64,000 nucleotides of DNA from Flectobacillus major DSM 103 (GTDB taxonomy: Bacteria; Bacteroidota; Bacteroidia; Cytophagales; Spirosomataceae): positions 3,600,790 through 3,664,789 of the forward strand of contig NZ_KE386491.1 in assembly GCF_000427405.1 (NCBI RefSeq), read 5' to 3'. A program made the translations under genes and the position numbers. Positions 637 to 64,000 of the stretch are shown in pieces. Under the pieces are notes generated by a model that saw only the letters and a program-made list of their open reading frames with translations, searched no databases and was not told where the DNA came from. The stretch's first letter is position 1. Every line of letters starts with the position of its first letter.

Positions 637-3282
637 TCAAAGCGTAAAAATCAGTTTTGTCCATATCTGTCTCGGACGAAGTCTAAAATTAGTGGATATA
701 AACGAATTATCTGAAAAGCTCAAAGTCTGAAAATTCATTTCATTAGTTAAGTTTTGAAAGAATAAACTCAAATCAACATTTCCTTTTTTAAAATGATAAT
801 TTGCCACACAATCCATCAAAAAATAACGCTGAAGTTGATTTTGCTCATCGTCAATTTGATATTTATTGGCTTCAATACCAAAAGTTAGATTTGGGGAAGG
901 AAGAAAGTCAATCTTAGTTTTGAAGTTTAATTGCTCAAAGGTATTTCTAGTATTCAGTGTTTCTGTTTTAACAGAATTCGATGAATGTATAGCGTTAACA
1001 TCAAATTGTAGCCGAAGCCATTTCTTTGGATTTGAATTTATAATCAACGCTATAATATTGCTCTTATTTTCAATTTTTGCGGGCTGATTATTAGAAAATA
1101 GTCTTACAGAATTTCTTACTTCGTTACTATTACTAATGGTTAATTTAGTTTTTATGGTATGAAAATATTTACTGGTTTGTAAAAATCCATTGAAATTTTG
1201 GGTTGTATTATCGGATGCAATTCTAACCTGTTTGATATAAATTCCATCATTGGTTTGTTCTTTTAAAAGATTGCTCTGAACTTCTCCGAATCCAATAACG
1301 GCATTCATAAACCAGAAGTGAATCATATTTTTAAAATTCAACCTTAAACTTACAGAGTGTCGTTGGTTATCAGGAATTTGCCCTACGTTTCGTTCAATAT
1401 TTCGATAATTTGTCAATAAAAAAGACTTATAAAAGTCATCTATTTCAGCGATGTTATACTTGAAATTATACTTAAAAGTGGTACTCCATTTCGCAGAAAA
1501 AATATAGGTCATAGAGAGATTTGGCTCAATAACAAAACGATTCTTCTCAAGATTTAACCAGTTTATAGAACTCACAGGCAAAGCAAAGTTAATTTTTAAG
1601 TTCTCCTTATTTACAGTATAGCCCATCTCACCAAATACTCGCCAGTAGGAAAGACTTTGATTATTTGAAAGTAGAGAAGAATCTCCAATGAGTTTCGCAG
1701 AAGAAAATCCCGATAAATTTGAAAATAGGCTTTGGTCCGAATATTCAGCTCCTATTTTAGTATTTAGTTTCAACTTTTTGTTAGCTAAAAAATTGGTATA
1801 AAAACTGAAAAAAGACTTTCTTAATCTTAAATCTTGCAAGGTATTTTGTTTCAAGGTTTGATTGTTTGAAAGGACATTCAAGTTCTGAGGAGAATTCAAA
1901 TAATAACCCAATGCCTTAAATTCAATTATATTACCCGATGCGGATTTCTGCTGGATTTTCAATTCATCCGAAATCCATTGGGTATCGTATTGGTTTTGTT
2001 GATTTATGTTTTGCGTTTTTCCAAGGTTATCATTTTCTAGGATGCCTTCAGCATTTTGCCAACCCGCTTTTACAAACAATTTATTGCTGAAGTAATAGTT
2101 AGGCTGATTAGCTATGGTTGATAAAGTACCCTCTAACTGATTAATATTCTTTATATTATTTTGCTTTTCTGTAACCAAAAGTGTATCATTTCCCAAAAAG
2201 TATCGACTTTCAAGCCAGCCTTGATTTGCCTGTTTATCCTTCAAATACTCAATGTTTAAAACTATATCATATTTTTTTTTGAGCGTCCAAAGATTTTTGG
2301 ATGTGAAAAGGCGACTCTGATTAAAGTTTAAATATTTTTGATTGACAGGTGGCTTACTAAATTCAATAATTGATAAAAGCGGATGCAAAACCTTTTGAAA
2401 TAAATACTGTGGACTTACATCTATCAAGTCTTCAATCGTAAGAGATTGCGTTGATGAAAGTAAATCAGTTCCAACGTTATTGTTTTTAATAACACTAAAG
2501 GACTGGTTATTTTTTGTAATCTTGATTAGATTTAAGCTATTATCGTACAGAACATTTTCTTCATCAAAACCACCACCAAAATGTGCCGTTTTTATCCATT
2601 TTGCTTTTACAGATTCTTTAAAAATAACATTCATCCCCGCTTTGGGGGAATAAACTATATCTTTCAGCACACTTATAGGCTGATGATTTTCAAGAATTTC
2701 AACCCGTTCAATATCTTGCCAACGGAAATTGTCATTGGCAATTTTATACTTCCCTTCAAACAAGTCCTTGCCTTCAGTATAATATTTATTGATGGGTTCG
2801 CCATTGTATTTTATCGTTCCATTTTCGCTGAGTTCAATACCTGGGAGTTTTTTAAGAACATCACCTAAACTTCGGTCTGTATTATTTCCAAATTGTTTAA
2901 TATCATAAGCAATAGTATCGTGACTGATGCGGACAGGAGGAGTTTTCACAATCACTTCTTTTAGTTCGATTGCTTGCGGAGTGAGGATAAAATCTTGAAT
3001 TAAATTGTTTTTTTTAATGATTCTTTCTTGCGTAGCAAAGCCCATAGAAGCCACTACAAGCTTAATGGTGTCAGATAAAAAAGGCTTATCAAATCGAAAT
3101 TGTCCCTTTGAGTCAGTAATGGCAAAGGACTGAATAATATCTTTTGGGGACTTGTACGCCCTAATACTTACCCCTTGAAGAGGATGCTGTTGAGAATCCA
3201 TAACACGACCCGACAGCAACTGAGAAAACCCCGAAAAATGTAATAATGTTGATAAAAACGCTACAGTACTTATCTTCTTCAT
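637..3282 (-). CDS. TonB-receptor-like outer-membrane beta-barrel protein with carboxypeptidase-regulatory-like domain
   Basis: An 881-residue exported protein. Residues 1-20 form a signal peptide (MKKISTVAFLSTLLHFSGFSQ). A carboxypeptidase-regulatory-like beta-sandwich follows (about 22-110, starting SGRVMDSQQHPLQGVSI), then a plug-like region with LKKLPGIELSENGTI and YYTEGKDLFEGKY (about 125-220), then a long region of alternating aromatic strands that fits a 600-residue outer-membrane barrel. The C-terminus ends in a strand with hydrophobic last residues (WTKLIFTL), as barrel proteins do. It lies 8 bases downstream of a GLPGLI-family gene, and such pairs are common in Bacteroidota. Known relatives are annotated as TonB-dependent receptors or outer-membrane beta-barrel proteins. 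The substrate is unknown; a clear Ton box was not seen. The link to the upstream peptide gene is an inference from position. Confidence 0.85.
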   Translation of the reverse strand: MKKISTVAFLSTLLHFSGFSQLLSGRVMDSQQHPLQGVSIRAYKSPKDIIQSFAITDSKGQFRFDKPFLSDTIKLVVASMGFATQERIIKKNNLIQDFILTPQAIELKEVIVKTPPVRISHDTIAYDIKQFGNNTDRSLGDVLKKLPGIELSENGTIKYNGEPINKYYTEGKDLFEGKYKIANDNFRWQDIERVEILENHQPISVLKDIVYSPKAGMNVIFKESVKAKWIKTAHFGGGFDEENVLYDNSLNLIKITKNNQSFSVIKNNNVGTDLLSSTQSLTIEDLIDVSPQYLFQKVLHPLLSIIEFSKPPVNQKYLNFNQSRLFTSKNLWTLKKKYDIVLNIEYLKDKQANQGWLESRYFLGNDTLLVTEKQNNIKNINQLEGTLSTIANQPNYYFSNKLFVKAGWQNAEGILENDNLGKTQNINQQNQYDTQWISDELKIQQKSASGNIIEFKALGYYLNSPQNLNVLSNNQTLKQNTLQDLRLRKSFFSFYTNFLANKKLKLNTKIGAEYSDQSLFSNLSGFSSAKLIGDSSLLSNNQSLSYWRVFGEMGYTVNKENLKINFALPVSSINWLNLEKNRFVIEPNLSMTYIFSAKWSTTFKYNFKYNIAEIDDFYKSFLLTNYRNIERNVGQIPDNQRHSVSLRLNFKNMIHFWFMNAVIGFGEVQSNLLKEQTNDGIYIKQVRIASDNTTQNFNGFLQTSKYFHTIKTKLTISNSNEVRNSVRLFSNNQPAKIENKSNIIALIINSNPKKWLRLQFDVNAIHSSNSVKTETLNTRNTFEQLNFKTKIDFLPSPNLTFGIEANKYQIDDEQNQLQRYFLMDCVANYHFKKGNVDLSLFFQNLTNEMNFQTLSFSDNSFISTNFRLRPRQIWTKLIFTL

Positions 3283-3290
3283 CCAACCTA

Positions 3291-4100
3291 TTATTTCTCA
3301 GTAAGTTCCATTGGATTATATGAACGTTTGGGTAAACTTGTGGGGAGGGATTCAAACGTAAAGCCATTTCGACCATCACTTAAAAACGGTAATGGATCTT
3401 CATTAAATTGCTTTCTTAATTTTAAATATTCTTCTCTTGATACTTTTTGTATTTTACTATTAGAAGAAATTAAAATATCTCTATTTATTTTTTCGATTCC
3501 AATACACGAAAAACTATAGTGCCCCTTACTTTCTTCAACTTTTAATATTAGCCCGGGTAAACCTGTAAATTTCCAAGGTCCTTCACTAATATTAATTTCT
3601 GGGGTAAACCATGCTTCATAACTACGTCCCCTAAACTGGCAAATTGCCTTTTGACAAATGTAATTCAAAACTCGCAAAGTATCTTCTTTAATTTCCCAAC
3701 TGATATTAGGTACAGGTTCTAGATAGGAGTAATTAAATATTCCTAAATTTTCAAAAGTAGTTAATTGCTTGGTGTCAGTATTTTTGAGAATAACCCTATC
3801 TTTTCCTCTTCTATTTTTGGGGATATTTAACTGGCTCAAATCAAACATCCCCGTTTTTTTTACTTGTTCCTCCAAGTTTTTTTTTGTTTCTGCAAGTGAA
3901 ATACTATAAAACCTACTTTGCATTTTGCCTATTTCTAAGCCCATTACATCATAGTTTTTTTTCGATAAATCTGTGGTATCTGCAACAGACGTTTCATTAT
4001 ATCTAACCATTAAGTATGCTTTATCTACGATTGTTTGAGCAAAACAAGAAGTAGAAACATTAAAGCAAACAAATAGTGAAATTGAAAATGATAATTTCAT
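3291..4100 (-). CDS. GLPGLI family protein, exported
   Basis: The family-defining motif GLPGLI is present inside WKFTGLPGLILKV, preceded by an AWFTPEI segment, which is the usual arrangement in this Bacteroidota-specific family of exported proteins of unknown function. From the Met at 4100 it encodes 269 residues with a signal peptide (MKLSFSISLFVCFNVSTSCFAQ); two in-frame Mets lie upstream (4112, 4127), but 4100 places the signal peptide best. It is co-directional with, and 8 bases upstream of, the outer-membrane barrel gene, so the two are almost certainly co-transcribed. Upstream lies a hairpin and then the small secreted peptide gene. The function is not established; periplasmic or surface location follows from the signal peptide. 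Confidence 0.85.
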   Translation of the reverse strand: MKLSFSISLFVCFNVSTSCFAQTIVDKAYLMVRYNETSVADTTDLSKKNYDVMGLEIGKMQSRFYSISLAETKKNLEEQVKKTGMFDLSQLNIPKNRRGKDRVILKNTDTKQLTTFENLGIFNYSYLEPVPNISWEIKEDTLRVLNYICQKAICQFRGRSYEAWFTPEINISEGPWKFTGLPGLILKVEESKGHYSFSCIGIEKINRDILISSNSKIQKVSREEYLKLRKQFNEDPLPFLSDGRNGFTFESLPTSLPKRSYNPMELTEK

Positions 4101-57183: not shown

Positions 57184-58530
57184 ATGGAACTAAATCAATT
57201 AACTGCCATTTCTCCCGTTGATGGGCGATATCGTAAGCAAGTCGAAAGCCTTGCTCCTTATTTTTCAGAGTTTGGACTTATCAAGTACCGTGTCCGCATT
57301 GAAATTGAATATTTTATTGCACTTTGCCAAATTCCATTGCCACAACTTGAAGGTGTAAACGCCAATCTTTTCTCATCATTGAGAGACATCTATCTGAACT
57401 TTACAGAAGAAGATGCTCTTTGGATTAAAGAAACTGAAAAAGTTACGAATCACGATGTTAAGGCAGTTGAATACTTTATTAAGCACAAACTTGCTAATTT
57501 TGGTATTGAGCAATATTTGGAGTTTATCCACTTTGGCTTAACCTCCCAAGACGTTAACAATACCGCTATTCCACTTTCGTTGAAAGAAGCAATGGAAGAT
57601 GTATTAGTACCCAAATTGCAGGAAGCCATAGCCAAAATTAAATCTTTGGCCAAAGAATGGAAAGACGTTGCTTTATTGGCACATACACACGGCCAACCAG
57701 CCTCTCCTACTCGTTTAGGCAAAGAGCTTTTGGTTTTTGCCGAACGCCTCGACCGCCAGATGGACTTGTTAGCTACGATTCCTTATTCAGCAAAATTTGG
57801 TGGAGCTACAGGTAACTTTAATGCACATCATGTTGCTTATCCCGAAACTAGCTGGGTAGATTTTGGCAACAACTTTGTACAATCGCTTGGCCTTTCAAGA
57901 AGTAAATACACTACCCAAATTGAACATTACGATAATTTGGCGGCATTGATGGATAACCTAAAACGTTTGAATAATATCATTTTAGATTTAGACCGTGATA
58001 TTTGGACTTACGTTTCTATGGGATATTTCAAACAAAAAATCAAAGCTGGCGAAGTAGGTTCTTCGGCTATGCCTCATAAAGTAAATCCTATCGACTTTGA
58101 AAACTCGGAAGGAAACGTTGGTATCGCCAATGCCCTTTATGAATTTTTGGCAGCCAAACTTCCTGTTTCTCGTTTACAAAGAGACTTGACCGACTCTACT
58201 GTGCTTCGCAACCTTGGTGTACCAATTGGGCATCAGTTAATTGCATTAACGGCATTGTTGAGAGGCTTAAATAAACTAGAACTCAACCAAGATGCTATCA
58301 ATACCCATTTAGAAGACAACTGGGCAGTAGTAGCAGAGGCCATTCAAACTATTTTACGCCGTGAAGGTTATCCACAACCTTACGAAGCCCTAAAAGCTTT
58401 GACTCGTAAAAATGAAAAAATCACCGACAAAACTATCGCCAATTTTATCGATGCCCTCGAAATTAGCGATAAGGTAAAATATGAATTAAAAAGAATTACC
58501 CCATTTAATTATTTAGGAATATTGGAGTAA
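57184..58530 (+). CDS. purB: Adenylosuccinate lyase
   Basis: 448 residues from ATG 57184 (MELNQLTAISPVDGRYR). Fumarase/aspartase superfamily: TSQDVNNTAIPLS, THGQPASPTRLGKEL, and the signature loop GEVGSSAMPHKVNPIDFENS, whose flexible Ser-rich part acts in catalysis. The enzyme makes fumarate twice in purine synthesis, from SAICAR and from adenylosuccinate. It belongs to the longer bacterial type close to E. coli PurB. The trp attenuator region follows it. Confidence 0.97.
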   Translation: MELNQLTAISPVDGRYRKQVESLAPYFSEFGLIKYRVRIEIEYFIALCQIPLPQLEGVNANLFSSLRDIYLNFTEEDALWIKETEKVTNHDVKAVEYFIKHKLANFGIEQYLEFIHFGLTSQDVNNTAIPLSLKEAMEDVLVPKLQEAIAKIKSLAKEWKDVALLAHTHGQPASPTRLGKELLVFAERLDRQMDLLATIPYSAKFGGATGNFNAHHVAYPETSWVDFGNNFVQSLGLSRSKYTTQIEHYDNLAALMDNLKRLNNIILDLDRDIWTYVSMGYFKQKIKAGEVGSSAMPHKVNPIDFENSEGNVGIANALYEFLAAKLPVSRLQRDLTDSTVLRNLGVPIGHQLIALTALLRGLNKLELNQDAINTHLEDNWAVVAEAIQTILRREGYPQPYEALKALTRKNEKITDKTIANFIDALEISDKVKYELKRITPFNYLGILE

Positions 58531-58588: not shown

Positions 58589-58618
58589 TTTGAAAACCGA
58601 ATTTTCCGTTTATGTTTG
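58589..58618 (+). promoter_or_regulatory. Promoter of the trp operon
   Basis: TTTG (58589-58592), an 18-base spacer and TATGTTTG (58611-58618) form a near-consensus Bacteroidota promoter. Transcription would start about 58625, 27 bases before the leader peptide. Confidence 0.75.
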
Positions 58619-58651
58619 CAGTCAAATAAAAAATACCCAATTCAAATAACA

Positions 58652-58708
58652 ATGACTCATACATTCAAAAATACAGCATGGTGGTGGCAACTGACGAATC
58701 TCGGTTGA
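58652..58708 (+). CDS. trpL: trp operon leader peptide with three consecutive Trp codons
   Basis: ATG 58652 to TGA 58706-58708 encodes 18 residues, MTHTFKNTAWWWQLTNLG. The TGG TGG TGG run is at 58679-58687, directly before the left arm of hairpin 1:2. Its position between a promoter and a terminator upstream of trpE, with the arrangement of alternative hairpins, is that of a transcription-attenuation leader. Ribosomes short of charged tRNA-Trp would stall on the three codons. The peptide itself likely has no further function. Confidence 0.9.
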   Translation: MTHTFKNTAWWWQLTNLG

Positions 58709-58783
58709 GCAGTACTATTTTGTATTTTCGATAAGACTATATATGTTCGAAAAGGCTTACTGTTCAACCAGTAAGCCTTTTTT
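58688..58783 (+). promoter_or_regulatory. Transcription attenuator of the trp operon
   Basis: Three mutually exclusive structures can be drawn. Hairpin 1:2 pairs 58688-58694 with 58701-58707 (7 bp, one G-U). The antiterminator 2:3 pairs 58703-58714 with 58758-58769 (12 bp, one G-U). The terminator 3:4 pairs 58751-58762 with 58769-58780 (12 bp perfect, loop of 6) followed by six Ts (58778-58783). A ribosome stalled on the Trp codons covers segment 1 and frees segment 2 to pair with 3, letting transcription continue into trpE. With plenty of Trp, the ribosome reaches the stop codon, blocks segment 2 and the terminator forms. All pairings were read from the sequence; the mechanism follows the enterobacterial model. 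Confidence 0.9.
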
Positions 58784-58895: not shown

Positions 58896-60302
58896 ATGAA
58901 ATTTACAGTAAAAACCACTCAAAAAAAGAAATTAGCGGATACTATCACTCCTGTAGGGGTTTTTCTTAAACTCCGCAATAAGTTTAAGAATACCGTAATT
59001 TTGGAAAGTGCCGACTACCACGGAAAAGAACACGGCTATAGCCATATTGCTTGCGACCCAATCGCAAGTTTTATTCTTGACAATGATATTGTTACCCAAA
59101 CTTTCCCTGATGGCAGTACCGAAACTTTTCCCTTGGCCAAACGCAAAGATGCTGTACAGGCTCTTATGAATTTTGCTCAGCGTTTTGAATGGGAACGTAA
59201 ACCCGATTTTGCTCCAATGGCCAATGGTATGTTTGGGCATATTTGTTACGATGCCGTCGAGTACTTTGAAGATATTGAGATTCAAGAGAAAAATGAGAAT
59301 ACCGAAATCCCTCAGATTATTTACTATGTGTACCGCTACGTAATTGCAATTAATCATTTCAAAGATGAACTTTCTTTGTATGCTCATCAGTATACCGACA
59401 ACCAAACGGCTTCGCTAGACGAGCTAGAAATGTTGTTAGATATGCCTCATTATGCCACCAAATCGTTTAGAGTAGTAGGCAACGAAATTACCAATGTAAC
59501 CGACGACCAAATGCGTGAAGTTGTCAAAACTTGTATTCAACACTGTTTACGGGGTGATGTATTCCAGATTGTACCTTCTCGCCGTTTTAGCCGCACATTT
59601 GAAGGCGACGATTTTCAGGTGTATCGAGCCTTGCGTTCTATCAATCCTTCGCCTTATATGTTCTATTTCGACTACGAGAACTATCGTATCTTTGGGGCAT
59701 CGCCCGAAAAACAAATACAAATTAAAAATGGGCAAGCCGAAATTCACCCGATTGCGGGTACGTTCAGACGTACAGGCGACGATGAAAAAGATGCCGAATT
59801 AGCCAAACTCCTACACGCCGACCCCAAAGAATCAGCAGAACACGTAATGTTGGTTGACCTAGCAAGAAACGACCTTTCGAGAAGCTCAGACACCGTAAAA
59901 GTAGAGACCTTCAAAGAAGTTCAATTTTTCTCGCATGTTATTCACTTGGTGTCTAAAGTAACGGGCCAGATGACCGCAGGCACAAACCCACTACAATTAG
60001 TTGCCGATACTTTTCCAGCAGGTACGCTGTCGGGGGCCCCAAAGCACAATGCCATGAGTATTATCAATCGCCTCGAAACCACCAATCGCCATATTTATGG
60101 CGGAGCTATTGGCTATATGGATTTTGATGGCAATTTTAATCATGCTATTGCTATCAGAACATTCTTGAGCAAAAACAACACGCTCTATTATCAGGCGGGT
60201 ATGGGTGTTGTGGCCAAATCGGTTATTGAAAGCGAGATGCAAGAAGTACACAACAAGCTGGCGGCTCTCAGAAAAGCCCTCGAAGTAGCCGAAACGGTAT
60301 AA
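58896..60302 (+). CDS. trpE: Anthranilate synthase component I
   Basis: 468 residues. ILESAD near the N-terminus is the tryptophan feedback site (LLES type). The chorismate-binding core has IVPSRRFSRTFEGDDFQVYR, SPYMFYF, FGASPEKQIQI, IHPIAGTFRRTG, and ETFKEVQFFSHVIHLVS; then TFPAGTLSGAPKHNAMSIIN and YGGAIGYMDFDGNFNHAIAI. With TrpG it converts chorismate and glutamine to anthranilate. It follows the attenuator by 112 bases. Lengths and motifs are normal. Confidence 0.97.
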   Translation: MKFTVKTTQKKKLADTITPVGVFLKLRNKFKNTVILESADYHGKEHGYSHIACDPIASFILDNDIVTQTFPDGSTETFPLAKRKDAVQALMNFAQRFEWERKPDFAPMANGMFGHICYDAVEYFEDIEIQEKNENTEIPQIIYYVYRYVIAINHFKDELSLYAHQYTDNQTASLDELEMLLDMPHYATKSFRVVGNEITNVTDDQMREVVKTCIQHCLRGDVFQIVPSRRFSRTFEGDDFQVYRALRSINPSPYMFYFDYENYRIFGASPEKQIQIKNGQAEIHPIAGTFRRTGDDEKDAELAKLLHADPKESAEHVMLVDLARNDLSRSSDTVKVETFKEVQFFSHVIHLVSKVTGQMTAGTNPLQLVADTFPAGTLSGAPKHNAMSIINRLETTNRHIYGGAIGYMDFDGNFNHAIAIRTFLSKNNTLYYQAGMGVVAKSVIESEMQEVHNKLAALRKALEVAETV

Positions 60303-60371: not shown

Positions 60372-60938
60372 ATGAAAATATTAGTGCTCGATAATTACGA
60401 CTCTTTTGTATATAACCTTGTGTACATTCTAAAAGACATGGGGCAAGACGTAGATGTTTTCCGAAATGACAAAATTGCGTTGGAAGACGTAAAAAAATAC
60501 GACAAAATTTTACTTTCGCCAGGGCCTGGTATTCCAGAAGAAGCAGGTATTTTATTAGATGTTATCAAAGAATATGCTTCTAGCAAAAGTATTTTTGGGG
60601 TATGCCTTGGCCACCAAGCTATTGGCGAAGCCTTCGGTGCAAAGCTCCTCAATATGGGCGACGTACTTCATGGTGTAACCACCAAATGTATTGTTACACA
60701 ACCCAACGAGCTACTATTTCAGGGCGTACCTAACGAAGTGGAGGTTTGTAGATACCACTCGTGGACAGTAGTACCCGAAACCATGCCAGAAGATTTGATC
60801 GTTACGGCAGTTGATGAAAAAGGATTTGTGATGGCCGAAGCTCATACCAAATATGATATTCGGGGAGTACAGTTTCATCCTGAAGCCTATTTAACACAAT
60901 ATGGGGTAAAAATGGTAGCTAACTGGGTAAATTCCTAA
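60372..60938 (+). CDS. trpG: Anthranilate synthase component II (glutamine amidotransferase)
   Basis: 188 residues. Class I amidotransferase triad: Cys in GVCLGHQAIGEAFG, His and Glu in GVQFHPEAYLTQYG. NYDSFVYNLVYIL at the start and SPGPGIPEEAG are also typical. It supplies ammonia from glutamine to TrpE. In many species the same protein also serves p-aminobenzoate synthesis; no pabB-like gene is here. The gap to trpE is 69 bases. Confidence 0.96.
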   Translation: MKILVLDNYDSFVYNLVYILKDMGQDVDVFRNDKIALEDVKKYDKILLSPGPGIPEEAGILLDVIKEYASSKSIFGVCLGHQAIGEAFGAKLLNMGDVLHGVTTKCIVTQPNELLFQGVPNEVEVCRYHSWTVVPETMPEDLIVTAVDEKGFVMAEAHTKYDIRGVQFHPEAYLTQYGVKMVANWVNS

Positions 60939-60986: not shown

Positions 60987-61973
60987 ATGAAATTTTACCT
61001 CAATAAAAGAATAGCTGGAAATACCCTTAGCAAAAGTGAAGCCCAAGAGGCCTTATCTATTATAGGAAAAGGTGAAGCCAATCCGTCTCAGATTGCCTCT
61101 TTTCTTACTACCTACATGGTGTTTCCTATTACTCCCGAAGAACTCGAAGGCTTTAGGGATGCCATGTTGGACTTGGCGGTAACGGTAGACCTTTCGGCGT
61201 ATACTCCCATGGATTTGTGTGGCACTGGTGGCGATGGAAAGGACACCTTCAATATCTCTACAACAGCTTCTTTTGTGGTAGCAGGAGCAGGACAAAATAT
61301 TGCCAAACATGGTAATCATGGTGTTTCGTCGCTAGTGGGGTCATCTACGGTATTAGAATACTTAGGGGTGAAGTTTTCAAATGACGAAGCCTACCTTCGT
61401 CAAAAAATAGAACAAGCGGGTATTTGCTTTTTGCATGCACCGTTATTTCATCCGGCTATGCGATTCGTAGGGCCTATCCGAAAAGAATTAGGACTAAAAA
61501 CCTTCTTTAATATGCTTGGGCCTATCTTGAACCCTGCCAAAGTTGAAAAGCAAATTACTGGTGTCTATAATGAAGAAGTACTAAAGCTGTACGGCTCTAT
61601 TTTTCAAAAGTCTAACAAAAATTTTGGGGTATTATATGGCCTCGATGGCTACGACGAAATTTCGTTGACGGGCGATTTTCTATTGATTACTCAACGAGGT
61701 ATAGAAACCATTTCGCCAAAACATTTAGGTTTCACAAAATGTAGTCCAGAAGAGTTATATGGTGGCTACACCGTTGAAGAGTCGGCCAAAATATTAACCT
61801 CTATCTTAGAAAACAGAGGAACTAAAGCACAGACAGACGTAGTCCTAGCCAATGCTGCTACAGCCTTGTATTGTGCCAATAATAATTTGAGCCTCGACGA
61901 CGCTGTTTTACAGGCAAAAGAATCCTTAGCAAGTGGTAAGGCTTTAAATGCCCTGAAAAAGTTTATTGATTAG
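60987..61973 (+). CDS. trpD: Anthranilate phosphoribosyltransferase
   Basis: 328 residues. The phosphate-binding motif CGTGGDGKDTFNISTTASFV, KHGNHGVSSLVGSSTVLEYL, and FFNMLGPILNPA match TrpD. It joins anthranilate to phosphoribosyl pyrophosphate. The gap to trpG is 48 bases. Confidence 0.97.
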   Translation: MKFYLNKRIAGNTLSKSEAQEALSIIGKGEANPSQIASFLTTYMVFPITPEELEGFRDAMLDLAVTVDLSAYTPMDLCGTGGDGKDTFNISTTASFVVAGAGQNIAKHGNHGVSSLVGSSTVLEYLGVKFSNDEAYLRQKIEQAGICFLHAPLFHPAMRFVGPIRKELGLKTFFNMLGPILNPAKVEKQITGVYNEEVLKLYGSIFQKSNKNFGVLYGLDGYDEISLTGDFLLITQRGIETISPKHLGFTKCSPEELYGGYTVEESAKILTSILENRGTKAQTDVVLANAATALYCANNNLSLDDAVLQAKESLASGKALNALKKFID

Positions 61974-62004: not shown

Positions 62005-62796
62005 ATGACAATTTTAGATAAAATTATAGCCAACAAAGCACTCGAAGTACAAGCCCGCCAAGCTCAGGTATCTATTGATACCCTAACGAAGAAAGGGTAT
62101 TTTGCCAAAAGTACTAATTCGCTAAAAACGAGTTTGCTTAATCCTGCCTCGTCGGGTATTATAGCCGAATTCAAACGAAAATCTCCCTCTAAGGGTATTA
62201 TCAATGCCAATGTTACCGTAGAAGACGTAACCAAAGGTTATGTAGAAGCTGGAGCTGCGTGCTTGTCGGTACTTACCGATATTGACTTCTTTGGAGGCTC
62301 TGACGAAGATATTCTCAAGGCCCGAAAAACCAACCCTACGATTCCTATTTTACGCAAAGATTTTATCATAGACGAATACCAAATCTATGAGGCAAAAGCT
62401 CTTGGAGCAGATGTTATTTTGCTGATTGCCGCCAACCTTACACCTACTCAAATATTGAAACTAGGCAAAGTTGTAAAAAGCTTGGGTATGGAAACTCTTT
62501 TGGAGGTACACGATAAAGGAGAACTTGATAGAAGTATCTGCGAATATATTGATGTTGTTGGGGTAAACAACCGTAATCTCAAAAACTTTGCAGAACAAAA
62601 TGTCAATGCGTCGTTGGAACTAGCCGACAAAATACCAAGCAGTTTTATCAAAATATCAGAAAGTTGTATTTCGCAGCCCGAAACTATCAAGCAGCTTCAG
62701 GCAGTAGGTTATAAAGGTTTTTTGATTGGCGAAACATTTATGAAAACAGAAGTACCTTCTCAAACCTTAAAATCGCTAATTGCTCAAATTCAGTAA
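62005..62796 (+). CDS. trpC: Indole-3-glycerol phosphate synthase
   Basis: 263 residues from ATG 62005 (MTILDKIIANKALEV). IIAEFKRKSPSKGIIN, LSVLTDIDFFGGSDEDIL, PILRKDFIIDEYQIYEAKAL, LLEVHDKGEL, VGVNNRNLK, and ISESCI give all catalytic Lys, Glu and Asn positions of the TIM barrel. It closes the indole ring. It is a stand-alone enzyme; TrpF is separate. The in-frame region from 61966 overlaps trpD and is not conserved. Confidence 0.97.
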   Translation: MTILDKIIANKALEVQARQAQVSIDTLTKKGYFAKSTNSLKTSLLNPASSGIIAEFKRKSPSKGIINANVTVEDVTKGYVEAGAACLSVLTDIDFFGGSDEDILKARKTNPTIPILRKDFIIDEYQIYEAKALGADVILLIAANLTPTQILKLGKVVKSLGMETLLEVHDKGELDRSICEYIDVVGVNNRNLKNFAEQNVNASLELADKIPSSFIKISESCISQPETIKQLQAVGYKGFLIGETFMKTEVPSQTLKSLIAQIQ

Positions 62797-62900: not shown

Positions 62901-63539
62901 ATGAGATTAAAAATCTGCGGAATGCGAGATGCCGAGAACATTCGCCAACTGTTAGCCTTACAGCCAGACTACATGGGGTTTATTTTTTACGAAAAATCAA
63001 GCCGATTTGTTGCCGACCAACTAGACGAAGACCTATTGAGGTCTTTCCCTAAATCAACTCGAAAGGTGGGTGTGTTTGTCAACGCAACACAATCATATAT
63101 CCTTGATATGGTAAAAAAGTACAGCTTAGACTATGTACAGCTTCATGGCGAAGAACTTCCAGATTTTTGTAAAAATCTCAAATTTAAGGGTGTAAATATT
63201 ATCAAGGCATTTGCATTAGATAATTCATTTAATTTTGGGAAACTCCACAATTATAAACCTCATTGCGATTTCTTTTTGTTTGATACTAAAGGCGAACAAG
63301 CAGGTGGCAATGGCATCACATTCGACTGGTCGTTGCTGAGAAGATACGACAACGAAAAGCCATTTTTTCTAGCTGGTGGTATTAGCTTAGAGAATGCTGC
63401 TCAGGTATTGGAAATGAGAACCCTCAAAATTCATGCGATTGATGTGAATAGTAAATTTGAAATAGCTCCTGCTTTAAAAGATATTGACAAAATAGCCGAG
63501 CTAATAAAAATATTAAAACCTGAAGAGGTTGAACTTTAG
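62901..63539 (+). CDS. trpF: Phosphoribosylanthranilate isomerase
   Basis: 212 residues. KICGMRDAENI holds the catalytic Cys; MGFIFYEKSSRFV, KVGVFVNA, VQLHGEE, LFDTKGEQAGGNGITFDWSL (with the catalytic Asp) and LAGGISLENA complete the pattern. The segment AIDVNSKFE replaces the more usual DVSSGVE form. It opens the ribose ring by Amadori rearrangement. The gap to trpB is 30 bases. Confidence 0.95.
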   Translation: MRLKICGMRDAENIRQLLALQPDYMGFIFYEKSSRFVADQLDEDLLRSFPKSTRKVGVFVNATQSYILDMVKKYSLDYVQLHGEELPDFCKNLKFKGVNIIKAFALDNSFNFGKLHNYKPHCDFFLFDTKGEQAGGNGITFDWSLLRRYDNEKPFFLAGGISLENAAQVLEMRTLKIHAIDVNSKFEIAPALKDIDKIAELIKILKPEEVEL

Positions 63540-63569: not shown

Positions 63570-64000
63570 ATGACGACAACACAACAATATAATGTTAATG
63601 AAAAAGGGTATTATGGGCAATTTGGCGGAGCGTTTATTCCTGAAATGCTTTACCCGAACGTCGAAGAACTCAAAGAACGTTATTTAAGTATTATTGAAGA
63701 AGCATCTTTCAAAGCCGAATACAATGCTTTACTAAAAGACTATGTAGGCCGCCCAACACCTCTATTTCTTGCTGAAAGGCTTTCTGAAAAATACCAAACA
63801 ACGATATACCTCAAAAGAGAAGACCTCTGTCATACAGGTGCTCATAAGGTAAATAATACGATTGGGCAGGCCTTATTGGCCAAACGCTTGGGCAAACGCA
63901 AAATCGTAGCCGAAACAGGGGCTGGTCAGCATGGTGTAGCTACTGCTACGGTGTGTGCCTTGATGGGGCTTGAGTGTATTGTATATATGGGCGAAATTGA
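63570..64000 (+). CDS. trpB: Tryptophan synthase beta chain (partial, cut by the window end)
   Basis: The first 143 residues are present: [49 protein letters not shown], and the PLP-lysine region [20 protein letters not shown], then [20 protein letters not shown]. TrpB joins indole and serine to make tryptophan in a complex with TrpA, whose gene should follow outside the window. It is the last gene of the trpEGDCFB series seen here. Confidence 0.97.

Follow-up and report, generated by a model that had tools for sequence, protein, structure and literature searches.

The trp attenuator of enterobacteria (Rfam RF00513, Trp_leader) joins tandem Trp codons to alternative 1:2, 2:3 and 3:4 pairings, with segment 2 lying some 15 nt beyond the Trp codons. 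Bacteroidota have an Rfam entry of their own, RF01692 (Bacteroid-trp, Bacteroidete tryptophan peptide leader RNA); Table 1 of Weinberg et al. 2010 (PMC2864571) gives it as a likely cis-regulatory RNA of Bacteroidetes. For Flavobacterium psychrophilum, transcript data gave clues to leader-peptide attenuation before amino-acid operons (PMC9723704); where the main text of that study names such 5' elements, they are those of pheA and hisG, not trp.

The locus described here lies in a 64,000-nt stretch of Flectobacillus major DSM 103, the whole of which was analysed and is called the window. The leader region sits between purB (stop at 58530, same strand) and trpE (58896), and the gene order after it is trpEGDCFB. 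We conclude that it is almost certainly a ribosome-stalling transcription attenuator of this operon. The nearest named relatives of the TrpE protein are from Flectobacillus, at 92% identity; the best NCBIfam model for trpE, TIGR00564, scored 417.7 bits, under its 517.7 cut-off, and the gene name rests also on the operon. The features are as follows.

58589..58592, plus strand: TTTG, upstream promoter box of Bacteroidota type (sequence; a TTG box is common in relatives)
58611..58618, plus strand: TATGTTTG, promoter box (TAnnTTTG) 33 nt upstream of the leader ATG (sequence; enriched in relatives)
58652..58708, plus strand: leader peptide ORF MTHTFKNTAWWWQLTNLG, 18 codons and stop TGA (ORF and translation)
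58668-58676 with 58720-58728, plus strand: outer helix enclosing 1:2, with weaker pairs on through the Trp codons (predicted fold; RF01692 consensus layout)
58679..58687, plus strand: three tandem Trp codons TGGTGGTGG (sequence)
58688-58694 with 58701-58707, plus strand: helix 1:2 (anti-antiterminator or pause hairpin), 7 bp, one G.U (pairing, predicted fold, covariation)
58703-58714 with 58758-58769, plus strand: helix 2:3 (antiterminator), 12 bp, one G.U (pairing, z −5.2 at this locus, covariation)
58750-58762 with 58769-58781, plus strand: helix 3:4 (intrinsic terminator), 13 bp, with six T at 58778-58783 (pairing, terminator scan, covariation)
58896..60302, plus strand: trpE, anthranilate synthase component I, the regulated gene (profile match and operon)
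60372..60938, plus strand: trpG (profile match)
60987..61973, plus strand: trpD (profile match)
62008..62796, plus strand: trpC, start taken at 62008 (profile match)
62901..63539, plus strand: trpF (profile match)
63570..64000, plus strand: trpB, running off the window (translation 64–73% identical to trpB-first genes of relatives)

The initial annotation had already proposed the promoter, an 18-residue leader with three Trp codons in a row, a 7-bp 1:2 hairpin directly behind them, a 12-bp antiterminator and a 12-bp terminator with six T. All of these were found again, the terminator with its six T but a helix of 13 bp rather than 12; a terminator scan listed it at 58749-58782. It had also seen that the segments overlap, and the arm coordinates agree: the overlap means that 2:3 excludes both 1:2 and 3:4. 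Predicted energies were −5.9 kcal/mol for the 1:2 core, −23.3 for 1:2 with the outer helix, −17.2 for 2:3 and −18.6 for 3:4. The fold predicted without a ribosome is the extended 1:2 hairpin plus the terminator; when the part through segment 1 and the 3' end of the terminator are omitted (58688-58775), helix 2:3 is predicted to win.

These parts suggest the following sequence of events. RNA polymerase would start about 30 nt ahead of the 18-codon leader ORF, and the 1:2 hairpin, lengthened by the outer helix, would be made while a ribosome begins the leader. With ample Trp-tRNA the ribosome would pass the three Trp codons and reach the UGA inside segment 2; segment 2 would then be covered or kept in 1:2, the 3:4 terminator would form, and transcription would stop near 58783. 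With scarce Trp-tRNA the ribosome would stall at the Trp codons, covering segment 1 and opening the outer helix, and the freed segment 2 would pair with segment 3, letting polymerase continue into trpE. The leader is expected to be translated, with an RNA end at 58783 and readthrough set by Trp supply.

Short ATG ORFs with at least two tandem Trp codons number five on both strands of the window, two of them with three such codons, and of the five this leader alone has, within the next 120 nt, a hairpin resembling a terminator at −10 kcal/mol or lower. We looked for the same arrangement up to 600 nt upstream of trpE in 258 genomes, one region per genome (5 at the level of genus, 95 family, 78 order and 80 class), drawn from some 371 genomes in which trpE had a match; three duplicates (L019, L026 and L051) were dropped, and some regions end at contig ends (e.g. 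L169 and L261). A leader ORF with at least two tandem Trp codons was present in 205 of the 258, whereas the reverse strand gave one in 10 of 258. This comparison is conservative, because forward leaders had to start within 420 nt while the reverse control took in the whole 600 nt. By level the counts were 5/5 for genus, 86/95 for family, 56/78 for order and 58/80 for class; leaders with at least three Trp codons numbered 5, 67, 36 and 42, respectively. Chance ORFs probably account for a few of the 205, such as MWWY in L201. Among the 53 regions that gave no tandem-Trp leader, sorting by eye recognized 13 with a W-x-W leader and terminator and 5 with a single-Trp N-G-W-Q-G leader at the same place, also with a terminator. 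Another 5 were trpB-first operons with the leader ahead of trpB instead, and the remaining 30 fell by eye into none of these classes. Separately, at 2564-2599 on the minus strand of the window lies a chance-like ORF, MDKNGTFWWWF, with three Trp codons and no terminator behind it.

Structure was assessed in a larger, partly redundant set of 244 distinct regions, 184 of them with ATG-started leaders. A hairpin with a T tract followed within 230 nt in 183 of these 184; one of the 183, the probable chance ORF in L201, has a weak one. The 2:3 duplex was compared with dinucleotide shuffles of the sequence lying between Trp codons and terminator. Of 181 loci, 115 reached p ≤ 0.05 and 59 reached p ≤ 0.01 (median z −2.35), with 66 missing p ≤ 0.05; among loci with a genome handle alone, 99 of 145 reached p ≤ 0.05. 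Segment 2 starts 14–17 nt past the last Trp codon (quartiles; median 16), and 15 nt past it at this locus, so that it falls just beyond a ribosome that has stalled at these codons. Terminators start 52–63 nt past the last Trp codon (quartiles). The motif TGA[AG]CAG was considered as a general mark of segment 2; it looked general by eye, yet was present in only 57 of 181 loci and was set aside.

Covariation was measured in a family alignment of 88 sequences with 86 distinct rows, two identical rows and two sequences without a terminator within 140 nt being excluded. Helix 3:4 had 92.5% of cells paired and 170 double-change cells, where 200 shuffles gave no more than 72; helix 2:3 had 79.7% and 71, where they gave no more than 40; helix 1:2 had 73.3% and 84, where they gave no more than 67. 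All three beat each of the 200 shuffles in both percentage paired and double-change cells. Versions of the helices slid along the alignment weigh more than the shuffles, since shuffling loses relatedness. Helices 3:4 and 2:3 beat all slid versions on both measures. Helix 1:2 was ahead of its slid versions in percentage paired and had 84 double-change cells against 68–70 (slid by 2–3 columns), but in pairs showing any double change it had 5, and slid versions had as many as 7. Covariation is therefore strongest for 3:4 and 2:3 and weaker for 1:2. The initial annotation had staked its trp attenuation reading on conservation of the Trp run and the pairings in relatives; both are conserved, and the leader counts and the covariation of 1:2, 2:3 and 3:4 support that reading.

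In the outer helix, leader codons ahead of the Trp run pair with the linker that follows segment 2, both in the predicted fold and in the RF01692 consensus. In a per-locus duplex test that uses no alignment columns, its pairing reached p ≤ 0.05 in 50 of 195 loci, whereas a control stretch farther upstream did so in 6 of 195; at this locus alone p was 0.126. Covariation by columns of the family alignment did not support it (59.4% of cells paired where shuffles reached up to 59.0, and 66 double-change cells where they reached up to 67). The evidence is modest, and we take the outer helix to be a real but loosely kept part.

A terminator in this position could be the plain end of the purB transcript, with the leader ORF there by chance, since purB ends on the same strand only some 220 nt before the hairpin. 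But a promoter-like site and the leader intervene between the two, and the leader-plus-terminator unit upstream of trpE is kept behind other genes and very different upstream DNA, even rRNA and tRNA genes (as in L041 and L106). Leader conservation (205/258 against 10/258) and covariation likewise contradict this reading, to which we give practically no credence. The sensor might instead be something other than a ribosome, namely a T-box for uncharged tRNA-Trp, a Trp riboswitch or a Trp-binding protein, any of which could act on an identical terminator and antiterminator pair. None would explain why tandem Trp codons stand at a fixed distance from segment 2, and no Rfam family, T-box included, reached its gathering score anywhere in the window; we consider such a sensor highly improbable.

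Besides attenuation, the leader RNA or its peptide could have a second role in trans, of the sort reported for the Sinorhizobium leader peptide peTrpL (PMC7298713). Released leader RNA and peptide would indeed arise in Trp-rich cells. The locus itself gives no sign of a trans role, however, and outside the Trp run the peptide differs from genus to genus, as a cis element would; an added role of this kind seems very unlikely. Two marks of the mechanistic class of ribosome-mediated trp attenuators are found here: a conserved tandem-Trp ORF before the first trp gene, and a mutually exclusive antiterminator and terminator with covariation.

Signals for starting the transcript and the peptide were also compared across leaders. 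Of 200 leaders, 143 have a TAnnTTTG box no more than 110 nt ahead of the ATG, whereas a control stretch taken farther upstream has one in 13 of 200; a TTG box stands 17–23 nt before the TAnnTTTG box in 108 of the 200. We take TTTG/TAnnTTTG to be the Bacteroidota promoter consensus. A generic sigma-70 scan found no promoter at 58589-58618, as expected for a promoter of Bacteroidota type. There was no excess of Shine-Dalgarno sites: a Shine-Dalgarno-like tetramer was present in 5 of 200 leaders, against 7 after shuffling. Ahead of the ATG, A made up 58% of bases at −3 and 56% at −2 in the 200 leaders, and for 145 of 173 leaders the start region was less paired than when shuffled. The TAnnTTTG box and the A-rich starts free of Shine-Dalgarno sites presumably reflect Bacteroidota rules of promoter use and initiation. 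The repressor TrpR (PF01371) had no match over cut-off in 98 Cytophagales genomes, with four weak matches under it.

Leaders of the identical type precede trpB-first operons too. L119, L125 and L212 carry the whole leader-plus-terminator unit twice in tandem upstream of trpE, both copies with three consecutive Trp codons. In five further loci (L366–L370, from genomes G576, G561, G524, G480 and G503) a separate trp leader lies before trpD and trpE is elsewhere; the gene downstream is 51–53% identical to the TrpD of the window, and in these genomes trpE follows a tandem-Trp leader of its own in four cases and a W-L-W leader in the fifth. Trp alternates with other aromatic residues in leaders upstream of trpE in L231 and L259 (FWFWQW and FWFWYWY), which might read Phe or Tyr too. 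The single-Trp leaders (L031, L032 and L284–L286) have N-G-W-Q-G where sister species have N-W-W-Q-G, with the terminator kept; they are natural losses of one regulatory codon.

Judged by its sequence, a second leader-peptide attenuator sits before ilvD in the same genome.

Locus 3220-3480, minus strand, of the ilvD region in this genome (L359, G000:C6): ilvD leader MNISKLVNIVLVVILLSCIV (leader and terminator scan)

In all five genus genomes ilvD is preceded by an Ile-, Leu- and Val-rich leader and a terminator of about −20 kcal/mol; at the other four of these loci, L357, L358, L360 and L361, the leader is MNISKLVNIVLVVILLSCIV or close kin. The arms of the antiterminator co-vary between species, GTGTGAGA pairing with TCTCACAC and GGTATGAGA with TCTCATACC. 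This genome's copy matched no Rfam amino-acid leader family at E ≤ 5. The 600 nt ahead of hisG and of PDT, scanned at five loci each, showed no comparable leader-terminator unit.

New here are the class-wide spread of the trp leader, the outer helix (on modest evidence), the lack of both a Shine-Dalgarno excess and a TrpR match over cut-off, the variant and tandem forms, and the putative second attenuator before ilvD. It is possible, though we would not call it probable, that ribosome-stalling attenuation is a general and ancestral means of amino-acid sensing in Bacteroidia, serving trp in most of the class and ilvD in this genus, and working without Shine-Dalgarno sites and without TrpR. The outer helix would then send an untranslated leader to termination and for that reason demand close coupling of transcription and translation, which to our knowledge has been little studied in Bacteroidota. 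If the attenuator works, the ribosome and polymerase of Bacteroidota need mutual timing, and the trp leader would be a natural reporter of translation speed in a phylum where most leaders lack Shine-Dalgarno sites.

Rfam models at their gathering scores found nothing in the window, and RF01692 surfaced only in a permissive search. In a 351-base search it matched this locus at 38.0 bits (E 0.0048), missing its cut-off, the gathering score of 49; model positions 1-131 align full-length to 58632-58761, before the trp genes. A genome-wide search with stricter filters gave no RF01692 match at E ≤ 0.01 in this genome. The cut-off was reached by none of 20 Cytophagales and related leader loci, this locus included, and in 14 of 296 class genomes (E ≤ 0.01 in 26); matches in relatives lie ahead of trpE, trpB and trpD. 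Compared by eye, only 8 of the 58 class-level genomes (out of 80) with a tandem-Trp trpE leader have an over-cut-off match there. The RF01692 model thus picks up just a minor share of the leaders of its kind: as the entry exists and few leaders pass it, the kind is known and the catalogue entry narrow. The attenuation reading of the initial annotation is supported, with the amendment that the element already has this Bacteroidota entry. It had called the element enterobacterial-style, which is apt for the Trp codons and the 1:2/2:3/3:4 logic but leaves out the outer helix.

RF00513 was not among the six matches at E ≤ 10 for this locus. With the enterobacterial attenuator the element shares tandem Trp codons, the 1:2/2:3/3:4 logic and the spacing of segment 2; unlike it, it has an outer helix, no Shine-Dalgarno excess and no TrpR partner. 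With RF01692 it shares the phylum, the site before trp genes, tandem UGG codons, an outer hairpin over the Trp codons and, in the alignment, the start of segment 3 (AAAAAGGCUUGUC), whereas the model stops within segment 3 and so is without the 3' arm of the terminator. This locus is a fresh member of the already known Bacteroidota trp-leader kind.
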